This document shows, in pieces, positions 1-56,832 of a DNA stretch of 64,000 bases. The notes under the pieces were generated by a model. That model ran no database searches, was not told the origin of the DNA, and saw only the letters and a list, made by a program, of their open reading frames with translations. The first letter of the stretch is position 1; the number at the start of each line of letters is the position of its first letter. The DNA is from Chloroflexota bacterium (lineage in GTDB: Bacteria > Chloroflexota > Anaerolineae > UBA4142 > SHND01): assembly GCA_029778615.1 (NCBI GenBank), contig JAKOPZ010000123.1, positions 1 to 64,000 on the forward strand, given 5' to 3'. A program made the position numbers and the translations under genes.

Positions 1-2570
1 AATGTGTGGACGTACTCTTTGATTCGAGGCGTAACATCGCGCGTGCGAAACTTGCGCAACAGCTCTGCCATGGACGCGCCTTCGTCCACAAAAATTCGCA
101 CATAGCCCTCCGGTTCGGCGAGCGTCAGTGCGTTCTCTAATGCGGCAAGCGCGGCGGACATTTCATTGCGCGCGCGATACGCCAGCGCGCGCAGTACAAG
201 AATCTCGATGATGCTTCTCTGCCGCGCCTTTTCCTTTGCCTCTTGCAGCAAACGTTCCAACAGTTTCATCGCCGCGTCAAGCGAGTCGCTTGCCCGTGCG
301 GATTCGGATTGAGCAATCAAGATACGCGCAAATGTAATGTGTTCAAACTCGCGCGCGAAATAGAATTCGCCGTCAACGTCAAGTCCGCGCTCGCTTGCCC
401 ATTCCAACGCGTCGCGCACTTTGCCCTGCCTGAGCCATACCGCCGCGCGCAATGCCGGGATGGGACGACTATCGAGCGTAGGACCGCCGACAAAATTTCG
501 TTCGCCCTCCTTGAGCAAAACCAGCGCGCCATCCAAATTTCCGCGTACTTGTTCAAGACGCGCCATCGCGCAATACCAACGATGCTGCGGTTCGACAAGC
601 GCCGCAAAGGGACCAAGTTCTTTGTATGTTTGTAGATGTTGTTCCGCAAGTTGCAGCTCGTCGCGTTCCAGATGCACCTCGCTCAATACGACGTGCAAGT
701 CCGCCGTTGCTTGCGGAACGGGTGGGCCGTGCTCTGCCACTTGTTGTAACGATTGTTCGGCGGTGCGTTTGGCATCATTCAAGCGTCCTTGTCCGAGCCG
801 AATGTCTGCCAACAGGTATTTCGCGCTGATGGAAAAATTTAGCCCGCCTGCCCTGTGCAAGTCGCGCACGCCCTCCGTAGTTATCTGATGTGCCGCGTCA
901 AGGTTTCCATTGTTCCAATACGCGATGCCCAAAAGTGCCGCCGCCGCGCCGCGCCACAAATGGTCACTCTCGGGCAAAACTTCAAGCGCGCGCCGCGCAT
1001 AGTTCACAATGCCATCCACATCGCCGAGCGCGCCGGCGCGATACGCGCGCGCAATCGAGATGGTGCCCGGCAAAGAACGCAACTCGTCTTGATTCGCAAC
1101 GGTTCGGTTGAACACTCCGTCGTTCAACAATTGTTCGGCTTGGTCGAGACGCACTCCCGCCGCATCGGTATCGGTAGGGAGTTGACCAAACGCGTAATAC
1201 ACATTGACTACGGGTCTCGCGCGCACGAGCTCGTCCGGCAGTTGTTTGACCCAGCCAAGCCACGTCGCCTCCATGCCGCCGAGATACATTGCGCGCAGCT
1301 GCCTTTCAATCAGGTCAGCGGCATGTTCAAAATCTGTCGCGGCAAGCGCGTGACGAATCGCGTCGGACGGCAGATTGTGGTGTTCGTACCACGCGGCGGC
1401 GCGCCGATGCAACAATTGTACCTCTTCCGGCTGCTGTTCCAACAAACGCGCCTGCAGCACTTCTGCAAAGAGATGATGATAACGGTACCACCTACGCCGG
1501 TCGTCGAGTGGAATAACAAACAAGTTGCTGCGCTCGAATGTCTCGAGCATCTCTCCGCCATTTTTTTGTTCCGTGACCGCATCGCACAGCGAACTGCACA
1601 AACGGTCGAGAATGGAGGTTTGCAGCAAAAAGTTCCGTTCATTTTCCGTTCTGCGTTCAAGAACCTCACCTACCAAATAGTCCAGCACATAGCGATGACT
1701 GCCCGCAAAAGAGTTGATGAACTCGGCAATGTCCTGTCGTTCGCGCCGCGGCTGTATTCCCGAAATCGCATCGGGCTGTGATTGAACGAGATACCCTTGC
1801 AGCGCGAGCGCGGCGAGTTGGAGTCCGGCAATCCATCCTTCCGTGCGCGTTTCCAATGCCGCAATGTCATGCGCCGACAAGTCCAGTCCCATGACCCGAT
1901 TGATGAAATCAGCCGCTTCCGTTTGCGTGAACCTCAAGTCCGCCGCGCGGATTTCGACGAGTTGGTCGCGGGCGCGCAGCAAGGCGAGCGGAATATCCGG
2001 GTCTTGACGCGTCGCAATGACCAGATGCATTTGCGGCGGCAGATGTTCGAGCATAAACGCAAGCGCGTCGTCAATCGCTTGCGCCTCGATCACATGATAA
2101 TCATCGAGAACAAGAATCAAGCGATTGGGCAGCGCGGCAATTTCATTCAGCAGCGCGGTGATGAGCGCGTTTGCAGGCGGCGGCTGGGGCGATTGGAGCG
2201 CGGCGAGCGCGCCCGCGCCAATGTTCGGCGCAATCGTCTGCGATGCCGTAACGAGGTAAATCAGAAATCGAACGAGGTCATTGTCCGCTTCGTCGAGTGA
2301 AAGCCAGGCAATGTTTGAAGAATGAAGGATGAAGGATGAAGGATGACGCGCGACTTTTGTTTCATCCCTCATCCCTCCGCTTTCATTTTTCTGATGCGCC
2401 CATTCACTCAACAGAGTAGTTTTGCCGAAACCGGCAGGAGCAGAAATGAGGAGCAGCTTGCGTCCCACCGAGATGCCTTGATTCAGCCGCTCGACGAGGC
2501 GAGGACGAAGCACGCTCTTGTGGCGGAGCGCGGGGACATAGAGTTTGGTGGCAAGCAGCGGCGCAGACAT
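1..2570 (-). CDS. LuxR/MalT-family ATP-dependent transcriptional activator (C-terminus outside window)
   Basis: The minus-strand frame is open from an ATG at 2570 to the window edge, giving about 856 residues. The P-loop APAGFGKTTLL lies near residue 35 and a Walker B-like LVLDDYH near residue 154, followed by an ATR sensor segment and a long helical TPR-like region. This is the MalT/STAND layout: an ATPase that oligomerises on inducer, a TPR sensor, then a C-terminal LuxR helix-turn-helix. The helix-turn-helix should lie just beyond base 1 and is not visible. The start codon is 6 nt from a TATAAT box and has no Shine-Dalgarno, so translation is probably leaderless. A 7-bp repeat array (2314-2391) inserts about 26 residues between the P-loop helix and the IAWLSLDEADND motif. 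Family assignment is firm; the inducer and target genes cannot be read. Confidence 0.9.
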   Translation of the reverse strand, partial: MSAPLLATKLYVPALRHKSVLRPRLVERLNQGISVGRKLLLISAPAGFGKTTLLSEWAHQKNESGGMRDETKVARHPSSFILHSSNIAWLSLDEADNDLVRFLIYLVTASQTIAPNIGAGALAALQSPQPPPANALITALLNEIAALPNRLILVLDDYHVIEAQAIDDALAFMLEHLPPQMHLVIATRQDPDIPLALLRARDQLVEIRAADLRFTQTEAADFINRVMGLDLSAHDIAALETRTEGWIAGLQLAALALQGYLVQSQPDAISGIQPRRERQDIAEFINSFAGSHRYVLDYLVGEVLERRTENERNFLLQTSILDRLCSSLCDAVTEQKNGGEMLETFERSNLFVIPLDDRRRWYRYHHLFAEVLQARLLEQQPEEVQLLHRRAAAWYEHHNLPSDAIRHALAATDFEHAADLIERQLRAMYLGGMEATWLGWVKQLPDELVRARPVVNVYYAFGQLPTDTDAAGVRLDQAEQLLNDGVFNRTVANQDELRSLPGTISIARAYRAGALGDVDGIVNYARRALEVLPESDHLWRGAAAALLGIAYWNNGNLDAAHQITTEGVRDLHRAGGLNFSISAKYLLADIRLGQGRLNDAKRTAEQSLQQVAEHGPPVPQATADLHVVLSEVHLERDELQLAEQHLQTYKELGPFAALVEPQHRWYCAMARLEQVRGNLDGALVLLKEGERNFVGGPTLDSRPIPALRAAVWLRQGKVRDALEWASERGLDVDGEFYFAREFEHITFARILIAQSESARASDSLDAAMKLLERLLQEAKEKARQRSIIEILVLRALAYRARNEMSAALAALENALTLAEPEGYVRIFVDEGASMAELLRKFRTRDVTPRIKEYVHT
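2314..2391. repeat. Heptad array inserted inside the MalT-like gene
   Basis: Read on the plus strand, three GGATGAA-type 7-mers are followed by about 15 bases and then two CATCCCT-type 7-mers. The two halves are partly complementary and could form a hairpin. The array is in frame and encodes a low-complexity segment with SSFILHSS. Confidence 0.75.
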
Positions 2571-2576
2571 GGTGAC

Positions 2577-2582
2577 ATTATA
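2577..2582 (-). promoter_or_regulatory. -10 box TATAAT for the MalT-like gene
   Basis: A perfect TATAAT lies on the minus strand 6 nt before the ATG at 2570, so transcription should begin at or next to the start codon. The -35 region is weak. Confidence 0.55.
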
Positions 2583-2639
2583 CAACGCCCACGTTCAAGA
2601 GGTATTCAAGCTCATCCGAGAATGTGGTGACTTGGGTTT

Positions 2640-3869: not shown

Positions 3870-3875
3870 GCGCGC

Positions 3876-3904
3876 ATTGTAGCAACGCATTTCGAAAATG
3901 TCAT
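3876..3904 (-). promoter_or_regulatory. Promoter ATGACA-17-TACAAT for the FGE-like lipoprotein
   Basis: On the minus strand a -35 ATGACA (3899-3904) and a -10 TACAAT (3876-3881) are 17 bp apart. The start codon at 3869 follows after 6 nt, implying a leaderless mRNA. Confidence 0.5.
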
Positions 3905-3912
3905 GTTCCCGG

Positions 3913-4191
3913 CTATTTGTTCAAGACCACATACACCACAAGCGCAACGGCAATGATAAAGGATGACCACAAAATACCGACGGCGATATTGCCCTTGCGC
4001 AATTCTTCCAATTCGGCGACGCCGGGCGTCAAAAAATCCAAGACGCGAAAGGCGATTCCGATGGCTGCGGCGAAACCAATCGCCGCGACAATGGACCATA
4101 AAACCGCGAGGACCATGTTGAGCGCGATGGCGCCAAAATCAGGTCCGGTGCCGGGAAGCGGTGGAATGCCACCTTGCATAAAATTGCCCAC
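3913..4191 (-). CDS. DUF350-like small membrane protein, copy 2
   Basis: The 92-residue protein starts at a GTG (4191) preceded by AAAGGAG at good spacing. The same start in the paralogue at 5184-5462 gives exactly the same length, which supports the choice. After GNFMQGGIPPLPG it has two hydrophobic helices (about residues 22-50 and 70-90) separated by a polar loop with LTPG, then ELRKGN and the C-terminal VVYVVLNK. The loop plus GN(I/M)AVGI motif resembles the DUF350 family of small integral membrane proteins, whose function is unknown. It follows the secreted protein at 4306-5067 on the same strand, just as its paralogue follows the larger secreted protein. Membrane location is near certain; the DUF350 assignment is by motif only. 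Confidence 0.8.
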   Translation of the reverse strand: MGNFMQGGIPPLPGTGPDFGAIALNMVLAVLWSIVAAIGFAAAIGIAFRVLDFLTPGVAELEELRKGNIAVGILWSSFIIAVALVVYVVLNK

Positions 4192-4216
4192 GATGCGATG
4201 CTCCTTTGCGATACAT

Positions 4217-4283
4217 CCCCCCGTGCCAACTCTGACAGTTGCTTGCCAAGCAGGCAATTTTTCAGAGCTGCCAAAATTGGCAG
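4217..4283. repeat. Intergenic palindromic repeat
   Basis: The gap between the 253-residue gene and the DUF350-like gene holds several overlapping inverted words: CAACTCTGACAGTTG, TTGCTTGCCAAGCAGGCAA and TGCCAAAATTGGCA. Together they can fold into a compact hairpin cluster. No coding potential is seen. Confidence 0.55.
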
Positions 4284-4305
4284 AGACAATGTGGATAAAG
4301 AAAGG

Positions 4306-5067: not shown

Positions 5068-5090
5068 TGTCGGGTCCAGTGCGCTAACAA

Positions 5091-5118: not shown

Positions 5119-5183
5119 TTATCAGCGCGCTTGAAGAGTAAGCATGGCTCCGGGCGCGTGCCAAAGGCAGAACACGCGCGGGG

Positions 5184-5462: not shown

Positions 5463-5491
5463 ACTGTTCTTCTCCTTGATGATGATTTCGT

Positions 5492-7390: not shown

Positions 7391-8275
7391 TCAATCGGTG
7401 TTTTTGGATTGCGCCAAATGCGCGACGAACGCGCGCACGTTCACCGGCGCGTCAGCCCAGCCCAACGCATTTGCCAAGCGCACCAACTGCGGCGCGTCCA
7501 AGCCCGCGCGTTTCAGAACCGATTCGTCGTTCAGCACGCGCGCATCGCCGCGCGCAATGACTTGACCTTGCGCCATGACGAGCAGTTCGGGAAACTGTTC
7601 CACGGCAAAATCAAGGTCGTGTGTGACCGCGATGACTGTAACGTGTTCGCGCTCCCACTGCTCTAACAAATCGGCGAGACGCTGCAAACCGAACGCGTCC
7701 TGTCCCGTCGTCGGCTCGTCCAAAACCACAATCGGCGTTTGCATCGCGACGACGGAAGCAATCGTCACCCAACGACGCTGCCACAGCTGCAAATCGTATG
7801 GATGCGTGTCGCGCACATTTTGCAACCCGCATAACTCTAGCGCGCGCGCCACGCGCGCCTCCAACTCTCCAGCCGCCACTTGCAAATTGGTCGGACCGAA
7901 CGCGATTTCCTCGCGCACACTTGTCTTGAACAATTGGTCATCGGGATTTTGAAACACAAAGCCCACGCGGCGCGCCAATTGCGCGATGGAATGTTCGCGC
8001 GTATTCCAATCGCCAATCAAAACATCGCCGCGCGTTGGTTTCAACAAGCCGTTCAAATGTTTGACCAGCGTGGTTTTGCCCGCGCCGTTTTGACCGATGA
8101 CCGCGATGCGCGAACCCGCGCGGATTTCCAACGAAACATCATTCAACGCGCGCGTGCCGTTTGGATAGGCAAAGTCGAGATTGGAAAGTTGGAGGTTCAA
8201 TTTTGGATTGGAATTTTTGAAATTGGATGTTCCGTGCGAGTGATGCGGCTGAAAAAAATCAAAAATGAAAATCAC
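7391..8275 (-). CDS. ECF transporter ATPase (EcfA-type), degenerate signature motif
   Basis: This 294-residue ABC ATPase belongs to an energy-coupling factor vitamin transporter. The Walker A GQNGAGKTT, Q-loop FQNPDDQLF, Walker B IVVLDEPT and switch THD are intact. The signature LSGGQ of ordinary ABC ATPases is replaced by LQLWQ, so its own composite ATP site is atypical. The frame begins with GTG overlapping the upstream stop (GTGA), implying translational coupling. The first 25 or so residues (rich in N, S and F) come from a 7-bp repeat array and precede the domain start LSNLDFAYPNGTRAL. It is the last gene of the S-T-A-A operon and should pair with the canonical ATPase just upstream. Confidence 0.9.
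   Translation of the reverse strand: MIFIFDFFQPHHSHGTSNFKNSNPKLNLQLSNLDFAYPNGTRALNDVSLEIRAGSRIAVIGQNGAGKTTLVKHLNGLLKPTRGDVLIGDWNTREHSIAQLARRVGFVFQNPDDQLFKTSVREEIAFGPTNLQVAAGELEARVARALELCGLQNVRDTHPYDLQLWQRRWVTIASVVAMQTPIVVLDEPTTGQDAFGLQRLADLLEQWEREHVTVIAVTHDLDFAVEQFPELLVMAQGQVIARGDARVLNDESVLKRAGLDAPQLVRLANALGWADAPVNVRAFVAHLAQSKNTD
8176..8232. repeat. Heptad-like array at the start of the second ECF ATPase gene
   Basis: Loosely repeated 7-mers based on TTGGAAA, GTTGGAG, TTTGGAT and TTTGAAA cover the first codons of the gene. They explain the non-conserved N-terminal extension. The units are more degenerate than at other sites. Confidence 0.45.
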
Positions 8276-14021: not shown

Positions 14022-14023
14022 GC

Positions 14024-20705: not shown

Positions 20706-23042
20706 TTAGGGTGGACGAACATCAATTTGGTCGAGCGTTTGCGTATTCGATTGGAACGGGAGTGCCAAACTCTCGCGCACGCTCACGCGCACAAAATATT
20801 TGGCTTGTGCCAATGTGGCGGGCAGTGGAATTTCGAGCGTCTGCCGCACGTATTGTCCCGCCGCGCCGCTCACACTTGACGTCTGTGTCGCCACAATTTT
20901 TCCAAACTCATCCGCGACCGTGACATCATATTCGCGCGGACTGTTTTCCTGCAAAACGCGCCACAACAACGTCAACGGCACGGTGCGCCCCGCAATGTAC
21001 GCGTCACCCGTATCCAAATCGAAGCCGCTCAATTCGAGTCCGCCCAAATCGCGCACAATGGTTTTATTCATGCCCAACAATTCGCGCGGCACGTTCGCGG
21101 TTTGCGGAGAGACCGTTACGCGTTCCAATTCTTGCTGACCAAACACTTTGCCCGATTCAGGGTCGTACAATGTGACTTGAAGTGTATACTCGCCGGGCAA
21201 TGCGCCGACAAAAATCGGAACCTCGTACGCGTCGGCAATGTATTCGTTCGCGCGCCACGCGGTCGTGGGATACGCGTCCAGGACGGGTTGACGGTCAAGC
21301 TGTCCCGCGAGCTTGCCATCCGCGTCAATCAGCTTCAATGACACCAGACGCGCGTCCGAAATTTTTTTCTGCGGCTGCCAAAAGAGGATAACCGGCACCG
21401 CGTGCGCGGAAGCGGCGACGCGCGTGTACCCCAACAATTTCACATCGCCAAAATCGGCGTTTAAAACATTTGTCGGGGTTGGCGCGTTCTGACGATTCGG
21501 TTTGGGGTGCACTTGGATCAGTGCGCCCAGTGATGACAACGAATTTTTTGCTTCGATTCCCGCCAACGGGCGTGTGAGAAAAACGGTGCGTTCGCGTTTC
21601 CGCGCATCCTCAATTGCATTCAAACGTTCCGCTTCTTTGTCCGCCGCAATCGTTTCGACATCGGGACGCAGGTTTTGTGTTTCCTGCACATAACGCAGCA
21701 GCGACATTTCGCCGAGAATGCCAATGATGGTCGCGTTGTTGGGCAGTGGTTGCGAGAGGACTGCGCGCCCATACACTATCACATCATTTTTGTTTGACAG
21801 GTCCACTTGCGCGTAATGTTCACGCAGCAGCGCGAAGGGCAGCAGCAGCAAGAGCAGCGCGCCGACACTCGCCGCAAGCGTCGCCCCGCGCGCGGGCAGC
21901 GCGTAATAGGCGAACCATAACAGTCCGGCAAGTCCCGCCGCGAGAAAAAGCGCCACAATCACGAACGATGGAATGAAAAAAACATTAATGTCCGCGACGC
22001 GATACGTCAACACAAAAATCAAATTCGCCAGCAGCGCGAGCGCGAGCAGAATCCATTCGCGCCACGCGCGCATAAAGAGCGCGACCAAGCCCGCGCACGC
22101 GGCGAGCAAGCCGAGCGCGCCAAAATCATTTACAAACAAATTGAAATAGTACGCCGCGTCGCGCGTTTCGTTGAACGGATTTTGCGAAAGAAACACTGTG
22201 TACGCCGTTCCCAAAATCCAATTCAAAAAACCTTCCGGCGTATTTTGATACGCGCCGTCGAGCGAACTCGTCACCATCCCGCGAATTGGCAAGTACACAT
22301 ACAAAAGCAGCGGCAGCGCGAACACTGCGACCAATTTCAAGAGCAATATGGGCTGCTTGAGAATTTTCCAATCGTAACTCAACACATACACTGCAAGTGC
22401 GGGATACAACAATACGGACATGCGGTGATGCGTGAGCAAGAGACCCGCGAAAAACGCGAGTGCGACAAGTGATGGGGATTGGGGGTTAGGAGTCAGTCGG
22501 TTGTTCCCTATCCCTGGCTCCCTGTCCGCCATTCCCCACCGCAGCACCAACCACAACATCACCGCTGTCAACAATGCTTGCAGCGTGTACACTTCGGCAA
22601 GAATCGCCTGAGACCAAAATGTTTCGCCGAACGCGAGCGTGAGCGCGGCGATGAGCGCGGGCGCACGCGTCAAAATTTCGCCGCGCAGATTGTTGGAATG
22701 AAAAAAACGTACTGTGATGAGGCGCGCGGCGAGATAGGTGAACCATACCGCGCCCGCGCCGCTCAACGCGGAAACGAGATTCACGCGATACGCGACATCG
22801 CCAACGGGGAAAAACGTCGCAAGCTTGATAAGAAGGGAATAGAGCGGATAGCCCGTCGGATGCGCGATTGCCATGCGCGCCGCGAGCAACTGAAATTCCA
22901 ACGAATCGTCAAAGAGGTACGCGACGGTGGGAGCGAGCGTGCGGAGATAAATAAAGAGTGTGAAAACAAAAAGCGCCGCGCCTACGAGCCAATCTAAACT
23001 CGCCCGGGCGCGGTCCGAAAAATTCGATTGGAAATGTCGCAT
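20706..23042 (-). CDS. DUF2723-family multi-pass membrane protein (glycosyltransferase-like)
   Basis: The 778-residue protein begins MRHFQSNFSDRARASLDW. It has about 11-13 membrane helices over the first 450 residues, opening with the DUF2723 signature LRTLAPTVAYLFDDSLEFQ and HPTGYPLYSLL. The C-terminal 330 residues are a soluble beta-rich region. DUF2723 proteins are related in fold to protein O-mannosyltransferases and are thought to move lipid-linked sugars. A loop insertion (REPGIGNNRLTPNPQSPS) comes from a 7-bp repeat array at 22471-22527. The start codon follows a TATAGT box by 7 nt. The gene is divergent from the serS T-box promoter. Confidence 0.88.
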   Translation of the reverse strand: MRHFQSNFSDRARASLDWLVGAALFVFTLFIYLRTLAPTVAYLFDDSLEFQLLAARMAIAHPTGYPLYSLLIKLATFFPVGDVAYRVNLVSALSGAGAVWFTYLAARLITVRFFHSNNLRGEILTRAPALIAALTLAFGETFWSQAILAEVYTLQALLTAVMLWLVLRWGMADREPGIGNNRLTPNPQSPSLVALAFFAGLLLTHHRMSVLLYPALAVYVLSYDWKILKQPILLLKLVAVFALPLLLYVYLPIRGMVTSSLDGAYQNTPEGFLNWILGTAYTVFLSQNPFNETRDAAYYFNLFVNDFGALGLLAACAGLVALFMRAWREWILLALALLANLIFVLTYRVADINVFFIPSFVIVALFLAAGLAGLLWFAYYALPARGATLAASVGALLLLLLPFALLREHYAQVDLSNKNDVIVYGRAVLSQPLPNNATIIGILGEMSLLRYVQETQNLRPDVETIAADKEAERLNAIEDARKRERTVFLTRPLAGIEAKNSLSSLGALIQVHPKPNRQNAPTPTNVLNADFGDVKLLGYTRVAASAHAVPVILFWQPQKKISDARLVSLKLIDADGKLAGQLDRQPVLDAYPTTAWRANEYIADAYEVPIFVGALPGEYTLQVTLYDPESGKVFGQQELERVTVSPQTANVPRELLGMNKTIVRDLGGLELSGFDLDTGDAYIAGRTVPLTLLWRVLQENSPREYDVTVADEFGKIVATQTSSVSGAAGQYVRQTLEIPLPATLAQAKYFVRVSVRESLALPFQSNTQTLDQIDVRPP
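22471..22527. repeat. Heptad array inserted inside the DUF2723 gene
   Basis: G-rich 7-mers (plus-strand GGGATTG, GGGGTTA) are followed by C-rich ones (CCCTATC, CCTGGCT), giving two partly complementary halves. It is translated in frame into a Pro/Asn-rich loop between membrane helices. Confidence 0.6.
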
Positions 23043-23049
23043 TGCCAAA

Positions 23050-23055
23050 ACTATA
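23050..23055 (-). promoter_or_regulatory. -10 box TATAGT for the DUF2723 gene
   Basis: A minus-strand TATAGT ends 7 nt before the ATG at 23042. No good -35 box is seen. The mRNA would be leaderless. Confidence 0.45.
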
Positions 23056-23082
23056 GCATGAAATTCGCATAGCCGAAAGAAT

Positions 23083-23111
23083 TTGACACGAGCGCGCGGG
23101 CATGGTAGGAT
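23083..23111 (+). promoter_or_regulatory. Promoter TTGACA-17-TAGGAT of the T-box operon
   Basis: A consensus -35 TTGACA (23083-23088) is 17 bp from TAGGAT (23106-23111). Transcription would start near 23118, just ahead of T-box stem I. Confidence 0.75.
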
Positions 23112-23312
23112 TTCCAACACTTGAGTAAGCGTTGCCGAATCAAGTAGCCGCGCGAATTTCTAGCGAGTTGCAGAAAGGTGGAACTGCGACAGTTGGCGCA
23201 AGCGAAAATCCAATTCGGCAGTGATGACACGATGTTCGGGTCATCACAACGCAACTGCGACGAGCAGTTTCGGTTCGCTCCCGTTATCGAGCCATTGAGG
23301 TTGTGACTCGAT

Positions 23313-23485: not shown

Positions 23486-24016
23486 ATGTTACCCGATTAT
23501 CTTGCGCCAGATTTGGAAATCGTCTTTATTGGTCTGAACCCCGGCACATATTCTGACAAAATGGGACACTATTTTGCGCGCTCGACCAATTTGTTTTGGA
23601 CAGCATTGTACGAATCGAAATTGGTCAATGAAAAACTCACACCCCAAGACGACGTTCGCATGAACGAATTTGGGTTCGGACTCACCGACCTTGTCGCGCG
23701 TCCCACGCCGAACATTGACGGGCTCGCGCGCGATGAATTTGTCGCGGGCGGGAAAGTTTTGCGCGCGAAAATTTTAAGGTTTGCGCCGCGCATCGCGTGT
23801 TTTGTCGGCATCACCGGCTTTCGCCACGCGTTTAATCCGCGCGCAGAATTTGGCTCGCAATCCTCCCCCGTGTGGGGGAATACAAAAATTTTCATCGTTC
23901 CGTCCACCAGTCCGCGCAACGCCTATTATCGTCCGCACGTGATTGATTGGTTCAAGAAACTCAAACTCTTGAGCGATGCACTGCGCGATGAAAAATCTGC
24001 AATCTGCAATCTGTAA
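23486..24016 (+). CDS. mug: Mismatch-specific uracil/thymine-DNA glycosylase (Mug family)
   Basis: The 176-residue enzyme has the Mug/TDG motifs FIGLNPGTYS near residue 14 and VPSTSPRNAYYR near 140. These form the base-flipping pocket that removes U or T mispaired with G. The active-site Asn of the GLNPG motif is present. The start ATG has no clear Shine-Dalgarno but follows a small GACGAAT/ATTCGTC hairpin. The last residues (EKSAICNL) and the stop codon are supplied by a 7-bp repeat array at 23994-24041. It lies between the serine T-box and serS, so its expression should follow tRNA-Ser charging, which is odd for a repair gene. Confidence 0.93.
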   Translation: MLPDYLAPDLEIVFIGLNPGTYSDKMGHYFARSTNLFWTALYESKLVNEKLTPQDDVRMNEFGFGLTDLVARPTPNIDGLARDEFVAGGKVLRAKILRFAPRIACFVGITGFRHAFNPRAEFGSQSSPVWGNTKIFIVPSTSPRNAYYRPHVIDWFKKLKLLSDALRDEKSAICNL

Positions 24017-24041
24017 TCTGAAATCTGCAATCTGCAATCTC
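23994..24041. repeat. AATCTGC heptad array between mug and serS
   Basis: Six to seven units of AATCTGC and close variants (AATCTGT, AATCTGA) run in tandem. They provide the last codons and stop of mug and end just before the GGAGG ribosome site of serS. Confidence 0.88.
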
Positions 24042-24053: not shown

Positions 24054-25319
24054 ATGAACGACATTCGACTCATCCGCGAAAAACCCGAAGTGATGCGCGA
24101 GGCACTGGCGAAACGCCAAATGGATACCGCGCCCGTTGACCGCATCCTCGCGCTGGATGAAGAACGCCGCGCGAAACTTTCGGAACTGGAAGCGTTGCGC
24201 GCGCAACGCAACAGCGCGTCCAAAGAAATCGGACGCATGAAAGAGCAAGCGCAACGCGAAACTATGAAAGACCAGGTGCGCGTTATCAATATCCAGATTG
24301 ACGCGCTCGACACGCTCGTCGGTGAACTCGACGCGCAATTGCAAGAAGCAATGTACGAACTGCCAAACATCCCCGACGCCGATGTCCCAATTGGCAAAGA
24401 CGACAGTGAAAATGTGGTCATCAAAACGGTTGGCACGCTGCGCGAATTCGCGTTCACACCGCTGCCGCATTACGAACTTGGCACAAAACTCGGCTATCTC
24501 GATTTCGAGCGCGGCGTAAAACTCGCCGGCACACGTTTTTACGTGACGAGCGGACCGCTCGCCAAATTGCAGCGCGGGTTGATTCAATGGCTGCTCGACC
24601 ATCACATCGCGCGCGGCTATCGCGAATTTGGTTTGCCGTTCATGACCAAAGAAGAAATCATGCTCGGCGCGGGGCAACTGCCAAAATTCCGCGAAAATTT
24701 ATATCACGATGTCGAACGCGACGCGTGGTTCGTACCGACGGCGGAAATCCCGCTCACCGGTTTGCACATGAACGACATCTTGAATGGCGACGACCTCCCA
24801 CTGAACTACACCGCGTATACGCCGTGCTTTCGTAAAGAAAATCTCGCGGCAGGCAAAGACACGCGCGGCATCAAACGCGGCTTTCAATTCGACAAAGTGG
24901 AAATGTACAAATACTGCAAACCCGAAGATTCGGAACAGGAATTGCAAAACATGGTCGCGGACATTGAAGACATTCTCGTGCAGTTGCAAATTCCATATCG
25001 CGTCAAAGAACTTTGCACCGGCGACCTCGGCGCGAATTCGACCAAAACGTATGACCTCGAAGTGTGGGCGCCGGGCATTGGCGAATGGCTCGAAGTGTCG
25101 AGTGCGTCCAATGTGCGCGATTTTCAAGCCCGCCGCAGCAATATTCGTTTTCGTCGCGCGCCCGGTGCCAAACCCGAATTCGTTCACACGCTCAACGGTT
25201 CGGGTCTCGGCGTCCCGCGCACCATGATTGCGATTCTGGAAAATTACCAGCAAGAAGATGATTGGATTGAGGTGCCGCAAGTGTTGCGCGAGTATGTAAG
25301 GTTGGACGCCATCAAGTAG
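24054..25319 (+). CDS. serS: Seryl-tRNA synthetase
   Basis: The 421-residue class II synthetase begins MNDIRLIREKPEVMREALAK at 24054 behind CCGGAGGC. An N-terminal antiparallel coiled coil of about 100 residues binds the tRNA-Ser long arm. The catalytic core shows GTRFYV, PTAEIPLTGLHMNDIL, motif 2 with FRKENLAAGKDTRGIKRGFQF and motif 3 GLGVPRTMIAILENYQ. It charges tRNA-Ser with serine. It is the expected target of the upstream serine T-box. The stop codon is immediately followed by a tandem repeat block. Confidence 0.97.
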   Translation: MNDIRLIREKPEVMREALAKRQMDTAPVDRILALDEERRAKLSELEALRAQRNSASKEIGRMKEQAQRETMKDQVRVINIQIDALDTLVGELDAQLQEAMYELPNIPDADVPIGKDDSENVVIKTVGTLREFAFTPLPHYELGTKLGYLDFERGVKLAGTRFYVTSGPLAKLQRGLIQWLLDHHIARGYREFGLPFMTKEEIMLGAGQLPKFRENLYHDVERDAWFVPTAEIPLTGLHMNDILNGDDLPLNYTAYTPCFRKENLAAGKDTRGIKRGFQFDKVEMYKYCKPEDSEQELQNMVADIEDILVQLQIPYRVKELCTGDLGANSTKTYDLEVWAPGIGEWLEVSSASNVRDFQARRSNIRFRRAPGAKPEFVHTLNGSGLGVPRTMIAILENYQQEDDWIEVPQVLREYVRLDAIK

Positions 25320-25638
25320 GGAACGTTCGCCGCAACGTTCCATCGCCGCAACGTTCCATCACCGCAACGTTCCATCACCGCAACGTTCCGTGCAACATCA
25401 ACCGTAGGGAACGTTCGCCGCAACGTTCCATCGCCGCAACGTTCCATCACCGCAACGTTCCATCACCGCAACGTTCCGTGCAACATCAACCGTAGGGAAC
25501 GTTCGCCGCAACGATCCATCGCCGCAACGATCCATCGCCGCAACGATCCATCGCCGCAACGATCCATCGCCGCAACGATCCATCGCCGCAACGATCCATC
25601 GCCGCAACGTTCCGTCACCGCAACGTTCCGTGAAACGT
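25317..25638. repeat. 16-bp tandem repeat block after serS
   Basis: About twenty contiguous copies of a 16-bp unit (CGCCGCAACGTTCCAT, later CGCCGCAACGATCCAT) fill the region. A higher-order unit of about 88 bp beginning GTAGGGAACGTTC is present twice and starts a third time before the block turns uniform. Most copies carry the palindrome AACGTT. Apparent reading frames across it are repeat artefacts. It contains no gene. Confidence 0.93.
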
Positions 25639-25690
25639 CAAACGTGAAACGTCAAATCCTGTGTCAAATCAAAAATCCGAAACCTTGAAT
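25627..25690. repeat. AACGTCA-type heptad array at the rumA start
   Basis: AACGTCA, AACGTGA, AACGTCA and then progressively diverged 7-mers run into the first codons of the methyltransferase gene. The GTG start at 25661 lies within it. Confidence 0.6.
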
Positions 25691-26929
25691 CTAAAATTCG
25701 AGAGAATGGCGCAAGGGGGCGAGGCATTGGCGCGCGCCGAAAACGGACGCGTCATCTTTGTCCCCTATGCTATCGCGGGCGAAACCGCGCGTGTGGAAAT
25801 TGTTGAATCGCGTCGCGGTTTCGCGCGCGGACGCGTGCTTGAAATTCTGGAACCCTCGCCGCAGCGCATCACGCCGCGCTGTCCCCACTTTCCGCCGTCC
25901 TTGGGCATTCGTCATTCGTCGTTCTGTGGCGGCTGTCAATGGCAGCACATTTCGTACGCGGCGCAATGCGAATTCAAAACCCAAATCGTTCGCGACCAAT
26001 TCGCGCGCGTAGCAAAAATTCCTGACGCGCCTGTTTTGCCCATCATCCCTGCGCGCACCGAATGGTTTTATCGCAACAACATGCAGTTTGTCGTGAATGA
26101 GAACGGAGAATTATGTCTGCTCGCGCCGGATTCACACACGCGAGTTCCGATTCACGAATGTTTTGTTGCAGACGAACCGATTCGCGAAATGTTCAAAACG
26201 CTCGAACTCGATGCCGAAAGTTTTGACGGTGTCACCTTGCGCGCCGGTGAAAACACAGGCGAAAAATTTATCATTCTCGAATCCGACGACCCCGAAACGC
26301 CAGAGATTGAAACCGACGAAGCGGTCTCGATCGCGTTTCGTTCGGGCGACATGACGGTCCCAATTTTGGGGAACGAATTCTTGCATGAAAAAATCGGCGC
26401 GCGCGTTTTTCGTATTTCGCCCGATTCATTTTTCCAGGTCAACAGCGCGATGGCGCCAACGCTCGTCGAACTCGTGACCGAATTTCTCGCGCCGCGCGTG
26501 ACGGATATTTTGCTCGACGCGTATGGCGGTGTGGGACTCTTTGGCTTGTCGCGAGCAGATAAAGTTTTGCGTGTGATTGAGGTCGAAGAAAATCCAAACA
26601 CGGTCGAGGACGCAAAATCCAACGCGCAAGCTTTGAACAATATAGAGTTTCACGTCGGGCGCGTCGAATCCATTTTGCCCCAAATAGAATCCGGAATCGA
26701 TATTGCCGTGATTGACCCGCCGCGCGCAGGTCTGGAACGCGCCGCGCTGGATGCGCTCGCCGCAAAAAGACCGCGCACCATCGCGTATGTTTCATGCGAT
26801 ACCGCAACGCTCGCGCGCGATGTGGCGCGTTTTATTGAACACGGTTATCGTCTCGAACGCGTGCAGCCGGTGGATTTGTTTCCGCAGACCTATCATATCG
26901 AGTGTGTGACCAAGTTGGTACTGTTGTAA
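25661..26929 (+). CDS. 23S rRNA (uracil-5)-methyltransferase, RumA/RlmD family
   Basis: The 422-residue enzyme has an N-terminal TRAM-like domain (KFERMAQGGEALARAENGRV), an iron-sulfur cysteine motif, and an SAM-dependent methyltransferase core with DAYGGVGLFGL, a catalytic-type IDPPRAGLE, and AYVSCDTATLARD, where Cys is the nucleophile. It methylates uridine C5 in rRNA. The cluster region reads CPHF...FCGGCQWQ; about eleven residues (PPSLGIRHSSF), encoded by a 7-bp repeat array, separate the first Cys from CGGC where relatives have only one or two. The start is uncertain because the array covers it: GTG 25661 or a later codon. Confidence 0.93.
   Translation: MSNQKSETLNLKFERMAQGGEALARAENGRVIFVPYAIAGETARVEIVESRRGFARGRVLEILEPSPQRITPRCPHFPPSLGIRHSSFCGGCQWQHISYAAQCEFKTQIVRDQFARVAKIPDAPVLPIIPARTEWFYRNNMQFVVNENGELCLLAPDSHTRVPIHECFVADEPIREMFKTLELDAESFDGVTLRAGENTGEKFIILESDDPETPEIETDEAVSIAFRSGDMTVPILGNEFLHEKIGARVFRISPDSFFQVNSAMAPTLVELVTEFLAPRVTDILLDAYGGVGLFGLSRADKVLRVIEVEENPNTVEDAKSNAQALNNIEFHVGRVESILPQIESGIDIAVIDPPRAGLERAALDALAAKRPRTIAYVSCDTATLARDVARFIEHGYRLERVQPVDLFPQTYHIECVTKLVLL
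25902..25923. repeat. ATTCGTC heptads inside the rumA Fe-S motif
   Basis: GCATTCGTCATTCGTCGTTC holds two to three ATTCGTC units in frame between CPHF and CGGC. Confidence 0.7.
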
Positions 26930-38895: not shown

Positions 38896-40065
38896 TTACC
38901 CGGCGCGCAATTTTTGAAATGTCTTGCGCCATAAAAAGTGTGGCAAGCGACGTAGTCCTTTGCCGACGACCGCGTGATAATCCATATCGGCGTGTGCGAT
39001 TTCTTCAGTAAAGTGTTTGAGGATGTTGGACTGCGCGTAGGTTTTCAGCAGCGTAACAGGCATGCGATAAAAGACCATGCCCAAGCCGCCCGCGTAGCGA
39101 TAATCGCGCGTGAACTCGCGTTGAACGTGCGCGGTATATTCCGCGAAATCAAGCTTGCCCGCGTCCAAGCCGCGCGCGATATGTTCGGCTGCCAGTCCCC
39201 CGCTTTTGATTGCCGCGTAAATGCCTTCCCCTGAAAACGGGTCCACCAAATTTGCCGCGTCGCCGGCGAGCACAACGCGCGTACCGCTCACTTGACGCCG
39301 ATACCCGCCGAGCGGCAGGGTGTGCCCGTGCAGCGCGATTTTTTTCGCATGATGCAAAGTCGGCTCCGACGCGATGTATTGATTCAACAACGCGCGGAAA
39401 TCCAACTTTTGTCCGTAATGGACAAATGCGCCGACGCCGACGGAAAGATGTTCCGCTTTGGGAAAAATCCACGCATAGCCAAACGGCACCGCGCCAAAAT
39501 CGAAATGCCACACGCCGCGCCAATGTTCGACGGATTCGTTGGGCAATTCCATTTCCGCTTCGAGCGCGGCGGCGAGGCGGCGTTCACGATGCAAACCGGC
39601 GGCGCGCGCGACCAAGCCATTCGCCCCGTCCGCGCCAACAATCACTTGCGCGCGGAATTCGTCGCCATTCACTTGTACGCGCACGCCATCATCCGCAATG
39701 TCCACGCGCGTGACCTTTGACGCATCGCGAACTTGCGCGCCCGCCTTTGCCGCATGCTCGGCGAGCAGCGCGTCAAATTTGTCGCGCATGACGGACCAGC
39801 CGACGGGCGCGCTGAATTGAACCGGGAAACGAATCTGGTCGCGAAACGCGACGGACGCGTGTGCGATGGTGTCTTCAATCGTGGGCGAAAAATCGAGGTC
39901 GAGGACGTTCTTGACTTTGGCGGTGACGCCGCCGCCGCACGGTTTATAGCGCGGCAGTTTTTCTTTTTCGAGCAAGAGTGTTTTCACGCCCGCGCGCGCG
40001 AGATGCCGCGCAGCAGTCGTGCCGCTCGGTCCCGAACCTACAATGATTACGTCGTAATCGAACAT
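38896..40065 (-). CDS. FAD-dependent oxidoreductase, geranylgeranyl reductase family
   Basis: The 389-residue enzyme opens with the FAD-binding DVIIVGSGPSGTTAARHLAR, followed by the family motif PRYKPCGGG, a VIVGADGANGLVARAA segment, and the second FAD motif RVVLAGDAANLVDPFSGEGIYAAI. This group reduces polyprenyl chains or related unsaturated lipids. In bacteria it may act on menaquinone side chains or archaeol-like lipids; the substrate cannot be assigned here. The ATG arises within a 7-bp array (AAATCAT, AAATCAT, AAATGTT). It is the last gene of the yebC-ruvC-ruvA run on this strand. Confidence 0.9.
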   Translation of the reverse strand: MFDYDVIIVGSGPSGTTAARHLARAGVKTLLLEKEKLPRYKPCGGGVTAKVKNVLDLDFSPTIEDTIAHASVAFRDQIRFPVQFSAPVGWSVMRDKFDALLAEHAAKAGAQVRDASKVTRVDIADDGVRVQVNGDEFRAQVIVGADGANGLVARAAGLHRERRLAAALEAEMELPNESVEHWRGVWHFDFGAVPFGYAWIFPKAEHLSVGVGAFVHYGQKLDFRALLNQYIASEPTLHHAKKIALHGHTLPLGGYRRQVSGTRVVLAGDAANLVDPFSGEGIYAAIKSGGLAAEHIARGLDAGKLDFAEYTAHVQREFTRDYRYAGGLGMVFYRMPVTLLKTYAQSNILKHFTEEIAHADMDYHAVVGKGLRRLPHFLWRKTFQKLRAG

Positions 40066-40144
40066 TTATGATTTTTGATTTATGATTTCCGAATCACGGA
40101 CGCGCGCTCAAAATCATAAATCGTAAATCCGAAATCAAAAATCA
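40064..40144. repeat. Heptad hairpin between ruvA and the reductase gene
   Basis: TGATTTT, TGATTTA and TGATTTC units on the left mirror AAATCAT, AAATCGT, AAATCCG, AAATCAA and AAATCAT on the right. The outermost ATGATTTTTGATTT is perfectly complementary to the right end. The reductase start codon lies in it. Confidence 0.85.
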
Positions 40145-41208: not shown

Positions 41209-41270
41209 GTAGCAGGTATATTGTAGCAAGTAGCAGGGCGTTCACTTGCTACCTGCTACCTGCTACCTAT
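41209..41270. repeat. GTAGCAG heptad hairpin between yebC and ruvC
   Basis: AAGTAGC and GTAGCAA units face three CTACCTG-type 7-mers. TAGCAAGTAGCAGG and CTTGCTACCTGCTACC can pair. It fills the whole gap between the yebC stop and the ruvC start. Confidence 0.88.
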
Positions 41271-52451: not shown

Positions 52452-52458
52452 AGAAATT

Positions 52459-52500
52459 CGACGAAAAAATTCGTGACCAACGTCACGAATTTTTTCGTCG
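52459..52500. terminator. Bidirectional terminator
   Basis: A 19-bp perfect stem (CGACGAAAAAATTCGTGAC and complement) with a CAAC loop separates two convergent genes. Confidence 0.9.
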
Positions 52501-52506
52501 GGTATC

Positions 52507-54405: not shown

Positions 54406-54411
54406 ACTGCA

Positions 54412-54440
54412 AGTATATCGGTATTTTTGCAAAGAGTGAA
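54412..54440 (-). promoter_or_regulatory. Promoter TTCACT-17-TATACT for the 7TM sensor gene
   Basis: On the minus strand TTCACT (54435-54440) and TATACT (54412-54417) are 17 bp apart; the ATG follows the -10 by 6 nt. Confidence 0.5.
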
Positions 54441-54511
54441 AAAAAAACGCTTGCAAACAGATTACCGAAACAACGCCATCGAATTGGCGCGGAGTGCCGA
54501 CGCTTTATGGT

Positions 54512-55312
54512 TTAACGGTAGCCCAAGAGCAAAGTGAAATAAAAATACGCAAAGGTCAACGGAATAAACATGCTGTCGAGACGGTCAAACGCGCCGCCAT
54601 GCCCTGCAATCAGGGTGCCCGAATCTTTGACGCCGAGATTGCGTTTGATGAGCGATTCCGTGAGGTCGCCGGCGGTGGTCAAACAGGCGATGATGATGCC
54701 GCCGGGGAGTGCTAACAGTACAGGGATTCCATAAATCGAACCGAGAATGGTAAATGCAAGCGTGCCCGCGACGATTCCGCCCACCGCGCCCTGTCGCGTT
54801 TTCTTGGGGCTGATGGAGGGAAAGAATGGGTCTTTGCCCCAAATCCGTCCTGCCAGATAAGCAAAAATATCCGTTAGCCACGTCGCCAAGAGTGGAATAA
54901 ACAAGAGCTGCACACCATTTTCCAAATTACGCAGGGCAAACATGTACGAACCCAAGACGCCGATGTACATGACGCCCAACACCATGAGCGCCCAATCCAA
55001 CAAAAACCCCTGATGATTTTTGCGCGAGAGTTCCCACATCGGCGGAAGCGAAATGATGGTTACCAAAATCAGCGCGGTAAAGTCGTAGGGCAGAAAAGGT
55101 TTCAGCGACGCGTTCAAGAGCAAGAGCGCAATCGCAACAAGTGCGGGAATCCACAGTGGTCTGTGACTGCCCAAACGGGTCATGTTGAAATACTCGTATG
55201 CGGCAATCAACATGCCCACGCCGTACAGCGCCAAGAGCGCCCATCCGCCGAGCCAGACGGCGAGGGCGGCGAGAACGACGAGAATGTTGGCAGAGATGAG
55301 GCGCAAGAGCAC
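54512..55312 (-). CDS. cdsA: Phosphatidate cytidylyltransferase
   Basis: The 266-residue enzyme has about eight membrane helices and the CdsA signature near the C-terminus: SLIKRNLGVKDSGTLIAGHGG then FDRLDSMFIPL. It makes CDP-diacylglycerol from phosphatidate and CTP for all phospholipid synthesis. It is the last gene of the uppS-cdsA pair. The start used is GTG at 55312, without an obvious Shine-Dalgarno. The gap to uppS contains a palindrome. Confidence 0.95.
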   Translation of the reverse strand: MLLRLISANILVVLAALAVWLGGWALLALYGVGMLIAAYEYFNMTRLGSHRPLWIPALVAIALLLLNASLKPFLPYDFTALILVTIISLPPMWELSRKNHQGFLLDWALMVLGVMYIGVLGSYMFALRNLENGVQLLFIPLLATWLTDIFAYLAGRIWGKDPFFPSISPKKTRQGAVGGIVAGTLAFTILGSIYGIPVLLALPGGIIIACLTTAGDLTESLIKRNLGVKDSGTLIAGHGGAFDRLDSMFIPLTFAYFYFTLLLGYR

Positions 55313-55338
55313 GGGAACAAGAGGCGGTCAGGGTCAAC

Positions 55339-55405
55339 GTCATGGCGAGTCAAGCGAGAACCCGTTTCCCGTGCTGAAAGGATTTTCGGCTTGCCTCGCC
55401 ATGAC
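55339..55405. repeat. REP-like palindrome between uppS and cdsA
   Basis: GTCATGGCGAGTCAAGC and GCTTGCCTCGCCATGAC pair with one mismatch around a 33-base interior. It fills the junction. Confidence 0.8.
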
Positions 55406-55409
55406 CAAT

Positions 55410-56147
55410 TCAAGGTTTCAAAACTTTGCCAAAACGGCGTTCACGCTGACTGTATTCCAGCAGCGCTTTGTACAATTCCGCTTTGTCGAAATCGGGCCAG
55501 TAGGTTGGCGTGGCATAGTATTCCGCATACGCGGACTGCCAAATCAGATAATTCGACAGACGCATTTCGCCCGCTGTCCGAATGACCAAATCGGGGTCCG
55601 GTGTCTCGGCGGTGTAGAGATAGTGCGTAAACAATGCTTCGGTGATGTTTTCTACCGGCACTTTGTCGGCGATGATGCGCTTGACGGCATCAATGATTTC
55701 CGCGCGTCCGCCATAGTTGAATGCGACGTTGAGGGTGAGCCGCGTATTGTTTGCCGTTAACGCGACCGCGTCGGCAATCAGTTTTACCAACTTGGCGGAA
55801 AGGTGGTCAGTGCGTCCGAGATGGCGAATGCGAACACCGTTCTTGTGCAATTCGGGTGTCTCGCGCTGGATGGACTGTTCGAGAATGGTCATCAAGCCGC
55901 GCACTTCGTCGAGCGGACGATTCCAGTTTTCGGTCGAAAAGGCATAAATGGTGAGGTACTGAATGCCAAATTCCACCGCCGCGTTCAAAAGCGGACGAAT
56001 GTTTTCGACGCCTTGACGGTGTCCCATCACGCGCGGCAACCCGCGCGCCTGTGCCCAGCGTCCGTTGCCGTCCATGATGATGGCGACATGCGTGGGGATG
56101 CGCGTGAGTTCCGTTGGCGGAGAATTCTCTTCGAGAACAGCAGACAT
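55410..56147 (-). CDS. uppS: Isoprenyl transferase (undecaprenyl diphosphate synthase)
   Basis: The 245-residue enzyme shows [19 protein letters not shown] with the catalytic Asp, [20 protein letters not shown] and [15 protein letters not shown]. Relatives usually have RTSGExRLSNFLLWQ. It condenses isopentenyl diphosphate into the lipid carrier for wall synthesis. It lies between frr and cdsA, the conserved order. The 7-bp hairpin at 56154-56213 occupies its leader and no clear ribosome site is seen. Confidence 0.96.
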
Positions 56148-56153
56148 AAGGGG

Positions 56154-56213
56154 GACTAGAGATTAGAGATTAGAGAAAGTTGGGAAAATTCCAATCTCCA
56201 ATCTCCAATCGTT
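56154..56213. repeat. GATTAGA/CCAATCT heptad hairpin between frr and uppS
   Basis: GATTAGA units on the left face CCAATCT units on the right; the halves pair imperfectly. The array covers the entire intergenic gap. Confidence 0.85.
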
Positions 56214-56769
56214 ATACAGCCATCACTTCTTCTTCTTTTTTCGCGCTGACGGCGTTTGCTTCGGCGACGTACTGGTCGGTGAGCTTTTGCAAAATGTCTT
56301 TGCCGCGCTTGTGCTCGTCTTCCGTAATCATTTTCTCTTTTTCAAATTCTTCGAGGTCTTTCATTCCCTGATGCCGGATGTTGCGAATCGCGACGTGCGC
56401 TTCTTCGTTGCGCTGCTTGACGAGTTTGACCATCCTTTTGCGATTCTCTTCGGTCATCGGCGGCAAGGGCAGGCGAATAATTTTGCCGTCGTTGTTGGGC
56501 GTGAGTCCCAATTCCGATGCGAGAATGGCTTTTTCAATCGCCTTGATGGTCGAAGGGTCATGCGGTTTGATGGTGATGAGTCGCGCTTCGGGAACGGAAA
56601 TGGTGGCGAGCTGTTGCAGTGGTGTCGGTTCGCCGTAATAGTCCACTTTGAGCGGCTCGACAAGCGATGGGGACGCGCGTCCGGTGCGCATACTCTGAAA
56701 ATCGTGGCGCATTGCTTCAATCGCCTTTTTCATTTTGAGTTCTACTTCGGATTTTACGTCGTCTATCAT
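56212..56769 (-). CDS. frr: Ribosome recycling factor
   Basis: The 185-residue protein matches RRF throughout: MRHDFQSMRTGRASPSLVEPL, DYYGEPTPLQQLATISVPEARL, IKPHD, and RLPLPPMTEENRKRMVKLVK. With EF-G it splits the post-termination ribosome. It follows pyrH on the same strand, separated by a heptad hairpin. Confidence 0.97.
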   Translation of the reverse strand: MIDDVKSEVELKMKKAIEAMRHDFQSMRTGRASPSLVEPLKVDYYGEPTPLQQLATISVPEARLITIKPHDPSTIKAIEKAILASELGLTPNNDGKIIRLPLPPMTEENRKRMVKLVKQRNEEAHVAIRNIRHQGMKDLEEFEKEKMITEDEHKRGKDILQKLTDQYVAEANAVSAKKEEEVMAV

Positions 56770-56780
56770 AATTGAGGTAT

Positions 56781-56832
56781 CAGGAAGCAGCTAGCAGCAG
56801 GATAACGCGAGTCCTGCTGCGCGCTGCTTGCG
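56781..56832. repeat. AGCAGC heptad hairpin between pyrH and frr
   Basis: AAGCAGCTAGCAGCAGGA (56785-56802) and TCCTGCTGCGCGCTGCTT (56812-56829) pair at 16 of 18 positions. The 7-bp units are AAGCAGC, TAGCAGC and AGGATAA. Confidence 0.8.

Follow-up and report, generated by a model that had tools for sequence, protein, structure and literature searches.

Heptanucleotide Fold-Back Arrays That Often Keep Their Slot While Their Word Changes in an Order of Anaerolineae

A group of related Anaerolineae bacteria (Chloroflexota) carries tandem arrays of 7-nt units, many of them accompanied by a complementary second arm, and comparison between species shows that the repeated word is mostly replaced at a kept slot, with both arms changed together, and provides evidence that the arms arise and are maintained at the level of DNA. 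The arrays were noticed in a 64,000-nt stretch of DNA, referred to here as the window, which is part of a 94,871-b contig (C229) of a 6.0-Mb metagenome-assembled genome (MAG) whose ribosome recycling factor has its nearest named relatives among Chloroflexi and Anaerolineae MAGs (best 90% identity). An earlier note, made from the letters of the window alone, had listed nine arrays there and suggested a mechanism that copies whatever heptamer is present, such as slippage with foldback. The host genome (G000) was compared with genomes from its own genus (five congeners, G001-G005), from a sister family belonging to the same order (14 genomes, f2), and from other families of the class (40 genomes).

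Periodicity was scored by a lag scan (match +1, mismatch -2) with a threshold of 11 in the window and 12 in the genome samples. The window contains eight period-7 segments, against none in each of 50 dinucleotide shuffles, while the other periods from 4 to 15 gave no segments except one at period 11 and four at period 14, itself a multiple of 7; of four segments at period 16, three belong to a separate repeat block (25327-25630). The own-genome sample of 550,051 b, which includes the window and covers about 9% of the genome through contigs chosen by number, yielded 65 segments of period 7, 10 of period 8 and 0-6 at each remaining period from 4 to 13, with further peaks at 14, 21, and 28, all multiples of 7. 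There were 48 period-7 segments in 480,153 b of the congeners, 53 of period 7 and 22 of period 8 in 367,309 b of the sister family, and six of period 7 in 240,000 b from ten genomes of other families; shuffled controls (periods 5-9, one shuffle per locus) gave 0-1 segments per group and period. Octamer arrays are common beside heptamers in the sister-family samples L053-L060, L236-L242, and L250-L253. Setting lags 1 and 2 aside, the lag spectrum of spacer DNA peaks at 7, 14, and 21 in all three groups of the order, and also at 8 in the sister family, whereas coding DNA shows multiples of 3 rather than 7.

The array step is 7, with a minority of 8, and the arrays share with heptanucleotide simple sequence repeats both tandem 7-nt units beyond chance and a peak at 7. 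A sharp genomic peak at 7 with many words, named in the earlier note as support for its idea, was found (no non-multiple period from 4 to 13 exceeds 10 segments, and the 77 own segments hold 33 words); its further claim that the unit length is constant holds for the dominant period, but gives way to octamers in 10 own-sample and 22 sister-family segments. Dense arrays characterize this bacterial order in the present sample, with at least one exception, a genome of another family (G037) with five period-7 segments in 20 kb. No period-7 segment was found in 50 kb each of a Chlorohelix and a Chroococcidiopsis plasmid, and 80 named frr loci (1.24 Mb) held five, two of them within a congener's record.

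The fate of the arrays was followed at orthologous pairs of neighboring genes, identified by all-against-all comparison. The set comprised 66 sites represented in at least two of six congeners, with 217 spacers of at least 35 bp, 39 of them bearing arrays; spacers shorter than 35 bp and gaps beyond 350-500 bp were excluded, as was any species showing more than two versions of the spacer at a site. Array presence was concordant in 36 species pairs, compared with 11.7 (standard deviation 3.2) under permutation within species and length class, and 0/2000 permutations reached 36. The words in these 36 pairs were identical in one, one base apart in three, two apart in 11, three apart in 16, and four apart in five, while words from different sites fall at the same distances in 0.8, 3.1, 19.1, 48.2, and 28.4% of cases, so that same-site words are just slightly nearer to each other. 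The arms tell the same story: among 121 orthologous hairpin pairs (non-independent, 30 within the genus), an arm scores a median of 14.75 against its own partner and 4.0, equal to background, against the partner from the other species, with 12/121 pairs reaching 10. In the yebC-ruvC spacer, judged by eye, 7- or 8-nt repeats are present in six of six species (GTAGCAG in G000, GTGTCAR/GTATCAA in G003, octamers or mixtures elsewhere) and look hairpin-like in five, G002 resembling a one-armed run. The thrS spacer carries GGAGAYT in G000 and G004, AGTCAAC in G002 and G003, another word in G001, and no array in G005, and at serS the nearest congener, G003, has nearly the word of G000. A slot that is often kept with a different word in related species points to copying at the DNA level and not to a fixed regulatory signal.

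Whether the hairpins are maintained as RNA was addressed by a strand comparison, on the logic that a hairpin needed at the RNA level tolerates G-U pairs on the sense strand but not A-C pairs. Scoring covered 274 of 275 co-directional spacers that had been checked for orthology, one being dropped for an ambiguous base (N). The 77 array-free hairpins contained 115 G-U and 86 A-C pairs (35 vs. 15 spacers), with the sense fold stronger in 51 and weaker in 26 (p 1.5e-4), whereas the 73 array hairpins of period 7 or 8 contained 102 G-U and 116 A-C pairs (22 vs. 30 spacers), with the sense fold stronger in 39 and weaker in 34 (p 0.92). The p values are generous because the species are related, and it is the contrast between the two hairpin classes that carries the argument: a sense-strand excess present in array-free hairpins is absent from the arrays, and so no RNA-level selection is seen. 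Sense-strand folding was likewise rejected as a property of the arrays in 101 unselected co-directional clusters, of which 60 fold more strongly on the sense strand and 41 on the antisense strand (signed-rank p 0.61). The arrays thus lack the transcribed-strand pairing of a structured RNA element, and the window yielded neither an Rfam match at gathering score nor a tRNA. A plasmid protein search with a 1357-aa protein of the window gave no match.

The second arms are specific to their sites. Counting one array per cluster, a complementary stretch (score at least 10) was found no more than 80 bp away in 24/57 own, 14/40 congener, and 16/42 sister-family clusters, compared with 7.4, 2.8, and 5.8% when flanks were exchanged between sites. 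Real partners thus far outnumber swapped ones, so that each partner arm fits the word of its own site. This supports the earlier note's interpretation, as does a drift of the units along the array: in 44 arrays, identity between units falls with separations of 1-6 (0.844, 0.808, 0.773, 0.741, 0.713, and 0.668) and then stays at about 0.70, and order-shuffled arrays reached the observed neighbor identity in 0/300 runs. Units are more alike within an arm (0.860) than between arms (0.808; 49 pairs, 37 of 48 untied favoring within), a comparison biased toward the former by the selection of arms for periodicity. Fixed differences between arms are transitions in 9/9 cases, and the units within arrays differ by 337 transitions and 230 transversions. 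The idea that the arms are unit-by-unit mirror copies found no support, since shuffling the unit order of one arm matched at least as well as the observed order in 200/200 runs, a test that is possibly sensitive to how the units were cut. Together with the closer likeness of units to their own arm, this leaves no sign of ongoing foldback copying, the mechanism favored earlier. The second arm may owe its origin to foldback, but nothing indicates that copying by foldback continued; the simplest history is one in which each arm slipped separately after a founding inversion.

Words were compared in canonical form, each heptamer being reduced over rotation and strand to one of 1172 possible necklaces. 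There are 33 distinct words in 77 own, 36 in 49 congener, and 40 in 61 sister-family segments, or 86 among all 187 segments when the three groups are pooled. The proposal that every site has its own word, with none shared, describes the words of the window well, which do differ, but genome-wide one family, RGAGAYT, accounts for 35/77 own segments, and identical words recur between groups in 0.6-0.95% of pairs, about 4-5 times the rate for random spacer heptamers (0.16-0.20%). Three consecutive RGAGAYT units, counted as overlapping matches, occur 488 times in G000, 314 in G004, 98 in G001, 18 in G003, six in G005, and once in G002, and in only two of the 40 other-family genomes (four matches and one), while the reversed pattern gave at most 20 matches in any genome. 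The arrays therefore do not follow the cyanobacterial short tandemly repeated repetitive (STRR) or GGGGAYT type, in which a genome has one or few words, despite the size of this one family. A common RTC/GAY core in every word was considered and rejected; in a test covering 10 two-mers, 32 three-mers, and 136 four-mers, AATC/GATT (17/86 words vs. 5.6 expected, z 4.3) and TCA (z 3.6) were moderately enriched among distinct words.

Some exchange between sites is also apparent. A composite array, in which RGAGATT units give way to GGGTGATT octamers, occurs at L217:10723, L218:6125, and L230:10592, and none was found in the samples of other species. Between L217 and L218 the likeness is 91% across 78 bp and continues through a third word; their flanks are unrelated. 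Local slippage would hardly set one succession of words at several unlinked loci, so copying between array sites probably occurs, and the first proposal, in which any heptamer that happens to be there is copied purely locally, does not account for the data. Most matching sites nevertheless share the word alone: among 404 pairs with matching words (68 own clusters), 16 share at least 15 non-periodic bases, and 12 of these 16 are at less than 80% identity. The passage from 7-mers to 8-mers extends over L217:10693-10796 and L218:6109-6141 and is seen again at L230:10592, a further word following at two of the three. Elsewhere, the loop at L227:10921-10996 contains a short sequence near GAACGGAGTGAGGAATCT (at most three mismatches) that occurs 10 times in 624 kb of the own genome, with five occurrences in 709 kb from the congeners and one in 367 kb from the sister family; it is perhaps a separate dispersed repeat.

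The 156 array clusters of the three groups, placed by in-house coding-score gene calls, comprise 101 in co-directional spacers, 12 in divergent and three in convergent spacers, 34 within called genes (a few at extreme gene ends), and six at contig edges. Among spacers of 45-160 bp, 75/342 co-directional ones hold a period-7 array, compared with 1/52 convergent and divergent ones (p 0.0002), and in co-directional array spacers the stem starts a median of 4 nt past the upstream stop codon. In the window, arrays occupy the yebC/ruvC, ruvA/oxidoreductase, frr/uppS, and pyrH/frr spacers. A reading as intrinsic terminators was rejected, because several arrays lie inside conserved gene clusters and because a TTT within 8 nt of the stem, seen for 45% of convergent-spacer stems and 32% of co-directional stems that lack arrays, follows 12% of co-directional array stems.

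In-frame arrays are tolerated in protein loops, and their presence inside genes argues against a purely spacer-bound function. The window arrays at 2314-2391 and 22471-22527, the latter a weak pattern, both lie in frame within genes. Measured against five plasmid homologues (from Acaryochloris, Gemmatirosa, Deinococcus, Chlorohelix, and Chroococcidiopsis, of 296 matching records), the first brings 21-22 extra residues, placed after the Walker A motif and ahead of the next strand; against E. coli MalT the gain is about 23 residues, by reading of the alignment, and lies between Walker A and the WLSLDE strand. The second falls in a TMEM260-like loop that bears clear arrays in the G001 and G003 orthologues and varies in length by more than 10 residues. 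An array-bearing G008 protein has 12 residues that its G000 and G012 homologues lack, while the intragenic arrays L055 and L239 bring no extra length relative to homologues, and a short array in urocanase lies in divergent residues of unchanged length. A 1039-residue gene (L014:4987-5417) contains a pair of long heptamer arrays that both fall in repeated segments of the protein, and a 685-residue gene of G009 (L252:4580-5480) holds five separate in-frame array segments.

From the slot, word, and strand results, which were computed directly, we infer that heptamer and, less often, octamer arrays are created and renewed by processes acting on the DNA itself, namely slippage, inverted duplication, and occasional copying between sites, an explanation given about an even chance of being right. 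Replication slippage in 7-8-nt steps would enlarge and homogenize each arm, now and then a strand switch or a foldback event would found an inverted copy, and occasional copying between sites would spread favored words within a genome; decay and regrowth would then swap the word, and selection would purge arrays that harm promoters, terminators, or folded protein, leaving them in free slots. Such arrays would need no particular sequence and probably have no required RNA function. Several points weigh against this explanation. It names no enzyme or process that makes the arrays, and it does not account for the weak preference for AATC. Spacers with and without arrays are similar in length, with medians of 103 and 88.5 bp in 52 genus pairs and 96 and 101 bp in 19 pairs, which argues against simple net growth, the MalT-like case nevertheless being a net gain. 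Arrays strongly avoid convergent and divergent spacers only in the range of 45-160 bp; over all lengths such spacers hold 15 of the 156 clusters, including the serS array of the window. For the intragenic cases, homologues aligned across the array in only 16 of 34, several without extra length, and the gene calls, sampling, and thresholds were the analysts' own choices. The lead of the sense fold in the unselected clusters, the bias in the within-arm comparison, and the failure to detect mirror-order copying count on the same side.

The rival explanations differ in what they take to be selected or spread. If operon spacers needed a stem-loop for mRNA stability, processing, or pausing, as proposed for repetitive extragenic palindromic (REP) sequences and bacterial interspersed mosaic elements (BIMEs), heptamers could be merely an easy building material, and selection would keep the hairpin and not the word. 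Such selected RNA hairpins would explain why several species retain a hairpin in a given spacer although each of its arms has changed, the strong preference for co-directional spacers of 45-160 bp, the folding of co-directional array spacers below their shuffles (median z -3.41, -2.97, and -3.95 in the three groups), and the stronger sense fold in 60/101 unselected clusters, a lead that the signed-rank test does not find significant. This explanation is nevertheless unlikely, in view of the missing strand bias in array hairpins where array-free hairpins have one, the 33/57 own clusters that fall below the partner-arm cut, the arrays within genes, and the scarcity of TTT soon after the stem. 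A mobile palindromic element, whose hairpin copies were spread by a transposase in the manner of a miniature inverted-repeat transposable element (MITE), a REP doublet forming a hairpin (REPIN), or a Rickettsia palindromic element and later degraded by slippage, is unlikely to a like degree. The composite array at three loci, the species-specific dominant word families, and the in-frame extra stretches in proteins would all suit it, but no common ends, loop, or core tie the copies together, there are 86 words, spacers are of like length with and without arrays, and so few pairs share non-periodic sequence that the conserved palindromic core of REP, BIME, or REPIN families is absent. It is rather more doubtful that a dedicated process in this order writes 7-8-nt fold-back arrays into permissive spacer and loop slots, drawing the word from a drifting, genome-specific pool; the arrays would then be a repeat family inherited by its geometry (unit length, complementary arms, position) and not by its letters.

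Ordinary local slippage alone, as proposed by Mrazek and colleagues according to the passages available in two later papers (PMC4679880, PMC4692102), would be in keeping with the dominance of period 7, the drift along arrays, and the many words. It is improbable here, failing to make word-specific inverted partners and to explain either the octamers seen by eye at the same slots or the composite array at three loci. The least probable of the explanations weighed is loss of the hairpin nuclease SbcCD. SbcCD cleaves DNA hairpins, and its loss might allow fold-back arrays to persist in this order. SbcD over the cut-off was found in 0/5 congeners, 0/14 sister-family genomes, and 29/40 other-family genomes, and SbcC matches at E < 1e-38 in 0/19 vs. 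31/40, a MutL control being over its cut-off in 55/60 genomes. The host genome itself, however, has an SbcD over the cut-off (C143:8155-8883) with a short SbcC fragment beside it at 7479-7721, on a contig that is possibly a contaminant, and most genomes of the order, congeners included, have weak SbcD and SbcC matches, in some at neighboring places. No genome exceeded the SbcC model's own cut-off, with just 10 candidates scored per genome. G034 has neither SbcD over the cut-off nor a strong SbcC match and yet no array in 20 kb, while the array-bearing exception G037 has SbcD; clade and trait are also confounded, the correlation lying within one clade.

Of the nine arrays first listed in the window, seven (2314, 23994, 25627, 25902, 40064, 41209, and 56154) proved more periodic than 300/300 local shuffles of their sites, and two are weak (22471, where 23/300 shuffles are as good, and 56781, with 8/300). 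The hairpin halves described at many sites beat all 300 shuffles at five (2314, 40064, 41209, 56154, and 56781) and failed to do so at 22471, 23994, 25627, and 25902. The hairpin array GGATGAA ... CATCCCT (2314..2391; period-7 score 21, stem 15, 0/300 for both) lies in the gene of a MalT/LuxR-type STAND ATPase regulator on the minus strand (3..2570; Pfam TPR_MalT 5.9e-63, MalT chain 8bob_C 4.1e-51), which extends beyond the window. The degenerate heptamer pattern at 22471..22527 falls at residue 192 of the TMEM260-like membrane protein, also on the minus strand (20706..23120; Pfam PF11028 1.2e-37). A single-arm AATCTGC array (23994..24041; period-7 score 31, 0/300, no stem) stands in a divergent spacer immediately upstream of serS, the plus-strand gene for seryl-tRNA synthetase (24054..25319; Pfam, start by coding score). 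The gap between serS and a methyltransferase gene holds about 20 copies of a 16-bp repeat by Tandem Repeats Finder (25316-25629), which the heptamer array adjoins, the short AACGTCA/AACGTGA run (25627..25690; period-7 score 12, 0/300, no stem) closing the block. An 18-bp ATTCGTC run inside the methyltransferase gene, assigned by Pfam (25902..25923), is marginal, with a score of just 9, a threshold at which about 0.4 chance segments are expected window-wide. Among genes assigned by Pfam, the hairpin array ATTTATG ... AAATCAT (40064..40144; period-7 score 12, stem 17.5, 0/300) makes up the whole spacer between ruvA and a flavin adenine dinucleotide (FAD)-oxidoreductase gene, from start codon to stop codon. 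GTAGCAG ... CTGCTAC (41209..41270; period-7 score 15, stem 13, 0/300) fills the yebC-ruvC spacer, and GATTAGA ... TCCAATC (56154..56213; period-7 score 14, stem 11, 0/300) lies in the frr-uppS spacer, where G001, G002, and G003 have other words. The hairpin AGCAGCT ... GCTGCTT in the pyrH-frr spacer (56781..56832; Pfam genes) has a stem of 13 (0/300) and a heptamer pattern that scores only 6.

A heptamer excess in bacterial genomes has been on record since 2007, and the literature found, as far as its available text goes, offers just a hypothesis for it. In the present clade a repeat retains its shape at a given position although its sequence is exchanged, and the array-free hairpins serve as an internal control that speaks against RNA-level selection; for that reason the origin of period 7 becomes testable by strain comparison; the in-frame arrays, in turn, show a route to new residues in protein loops. 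Among the top-ranked matches in the open-licence PubMed Central (PMC) literature, no paper was found to describe heptamer arrays that form hairpins and change their word between orthologous sites, nor any such arrays from Anaerolineae, and the multi-word form, slot conservation, concerted replacement of two arms, strand test, and in-frame loop arrays are new as far as that literature shows. A short tandem repeat survey of 2025 (PMC12699852) contained none of six terms looked up in it, and PMC4666352 had no bearing on the question.

Comparison with known systems, based on the accessible parts of each source, nevertheless reveals several relatives. Mrazek found in 2007 that heptanucleotides are the most abundant 5-11-nt repeats in most genomes and proposed polymerase slippage, as cited in later work whose accessible passages do not list inverted partners, slot conservation with word turnover, or in-frame loop arrays among the reported features (PMC4679880, PMC4692102). 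The GGGAATC and GGGGA(C/T)T heptamers of Xanthomonas and Nostoc resemble the present arrays in lying mostly in co-directional spacers and in forming inverted pairs (70 and 75 in two Xanthomonas), no role being identified for them in the text available; they also vary between two Xanthomonas species at the same gene pairs, with one word type (PMC4692102). In that study each genome has one G-rich word type, discussed in terms of G-quadruplexes, whereas here there are many words, mostly not G-rich, that are replaced between species (PMC4692102). The TAACTGA arrays of Beggiatoaceae are likewise intergenic, partly in ribosomal protein operons, but are described as having one word, lying mostly just upstream of start codons, and comprising 169 direct sets and one indirect set, while hairpins are common here and the strand is irrelevant; a range of heptamers is reported for Microcystis in the same source (PMC4679880). 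Within the phylum, Chloroflexus aurantiacus has dispersed (GATAGRA)n satellites, which share the heptamer unit but have one word and no hairpins in the description available (PMC6749651). Rickettsia palindromic elements are likewise palindromic DNA in frame inside genes, but form families of about 150 bp with a conserved peptide according to the text at hand, whereas no conserved sequence is present here (PMC10969869). The earlier note's contrast with cyanobacterial repeats, said to keep one word and generally not to form hairpins, is not supported by the literature consulted, in which one Calothrix has three heptamer words and inverted pairs are numerous in Xanthomonas (PMC4692102), and the P6b stem of the Nostoc tRNA-Leu intron consists of complementary heptamer repeats of either a TDNGATT or an NNTGAGT class (PMC4476775). 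This stem, built of complementary heptamers with alternative words, is close in design to the present arrays, whose enrichment in GATT/AATC recalls TDNGATT; in Nostoc, as far as the accessible account goes, it occupies a single intron position where the fold matters in RNA, whereas here the same design recurs in many spacers without an RNA strand signal (PMC4476775).

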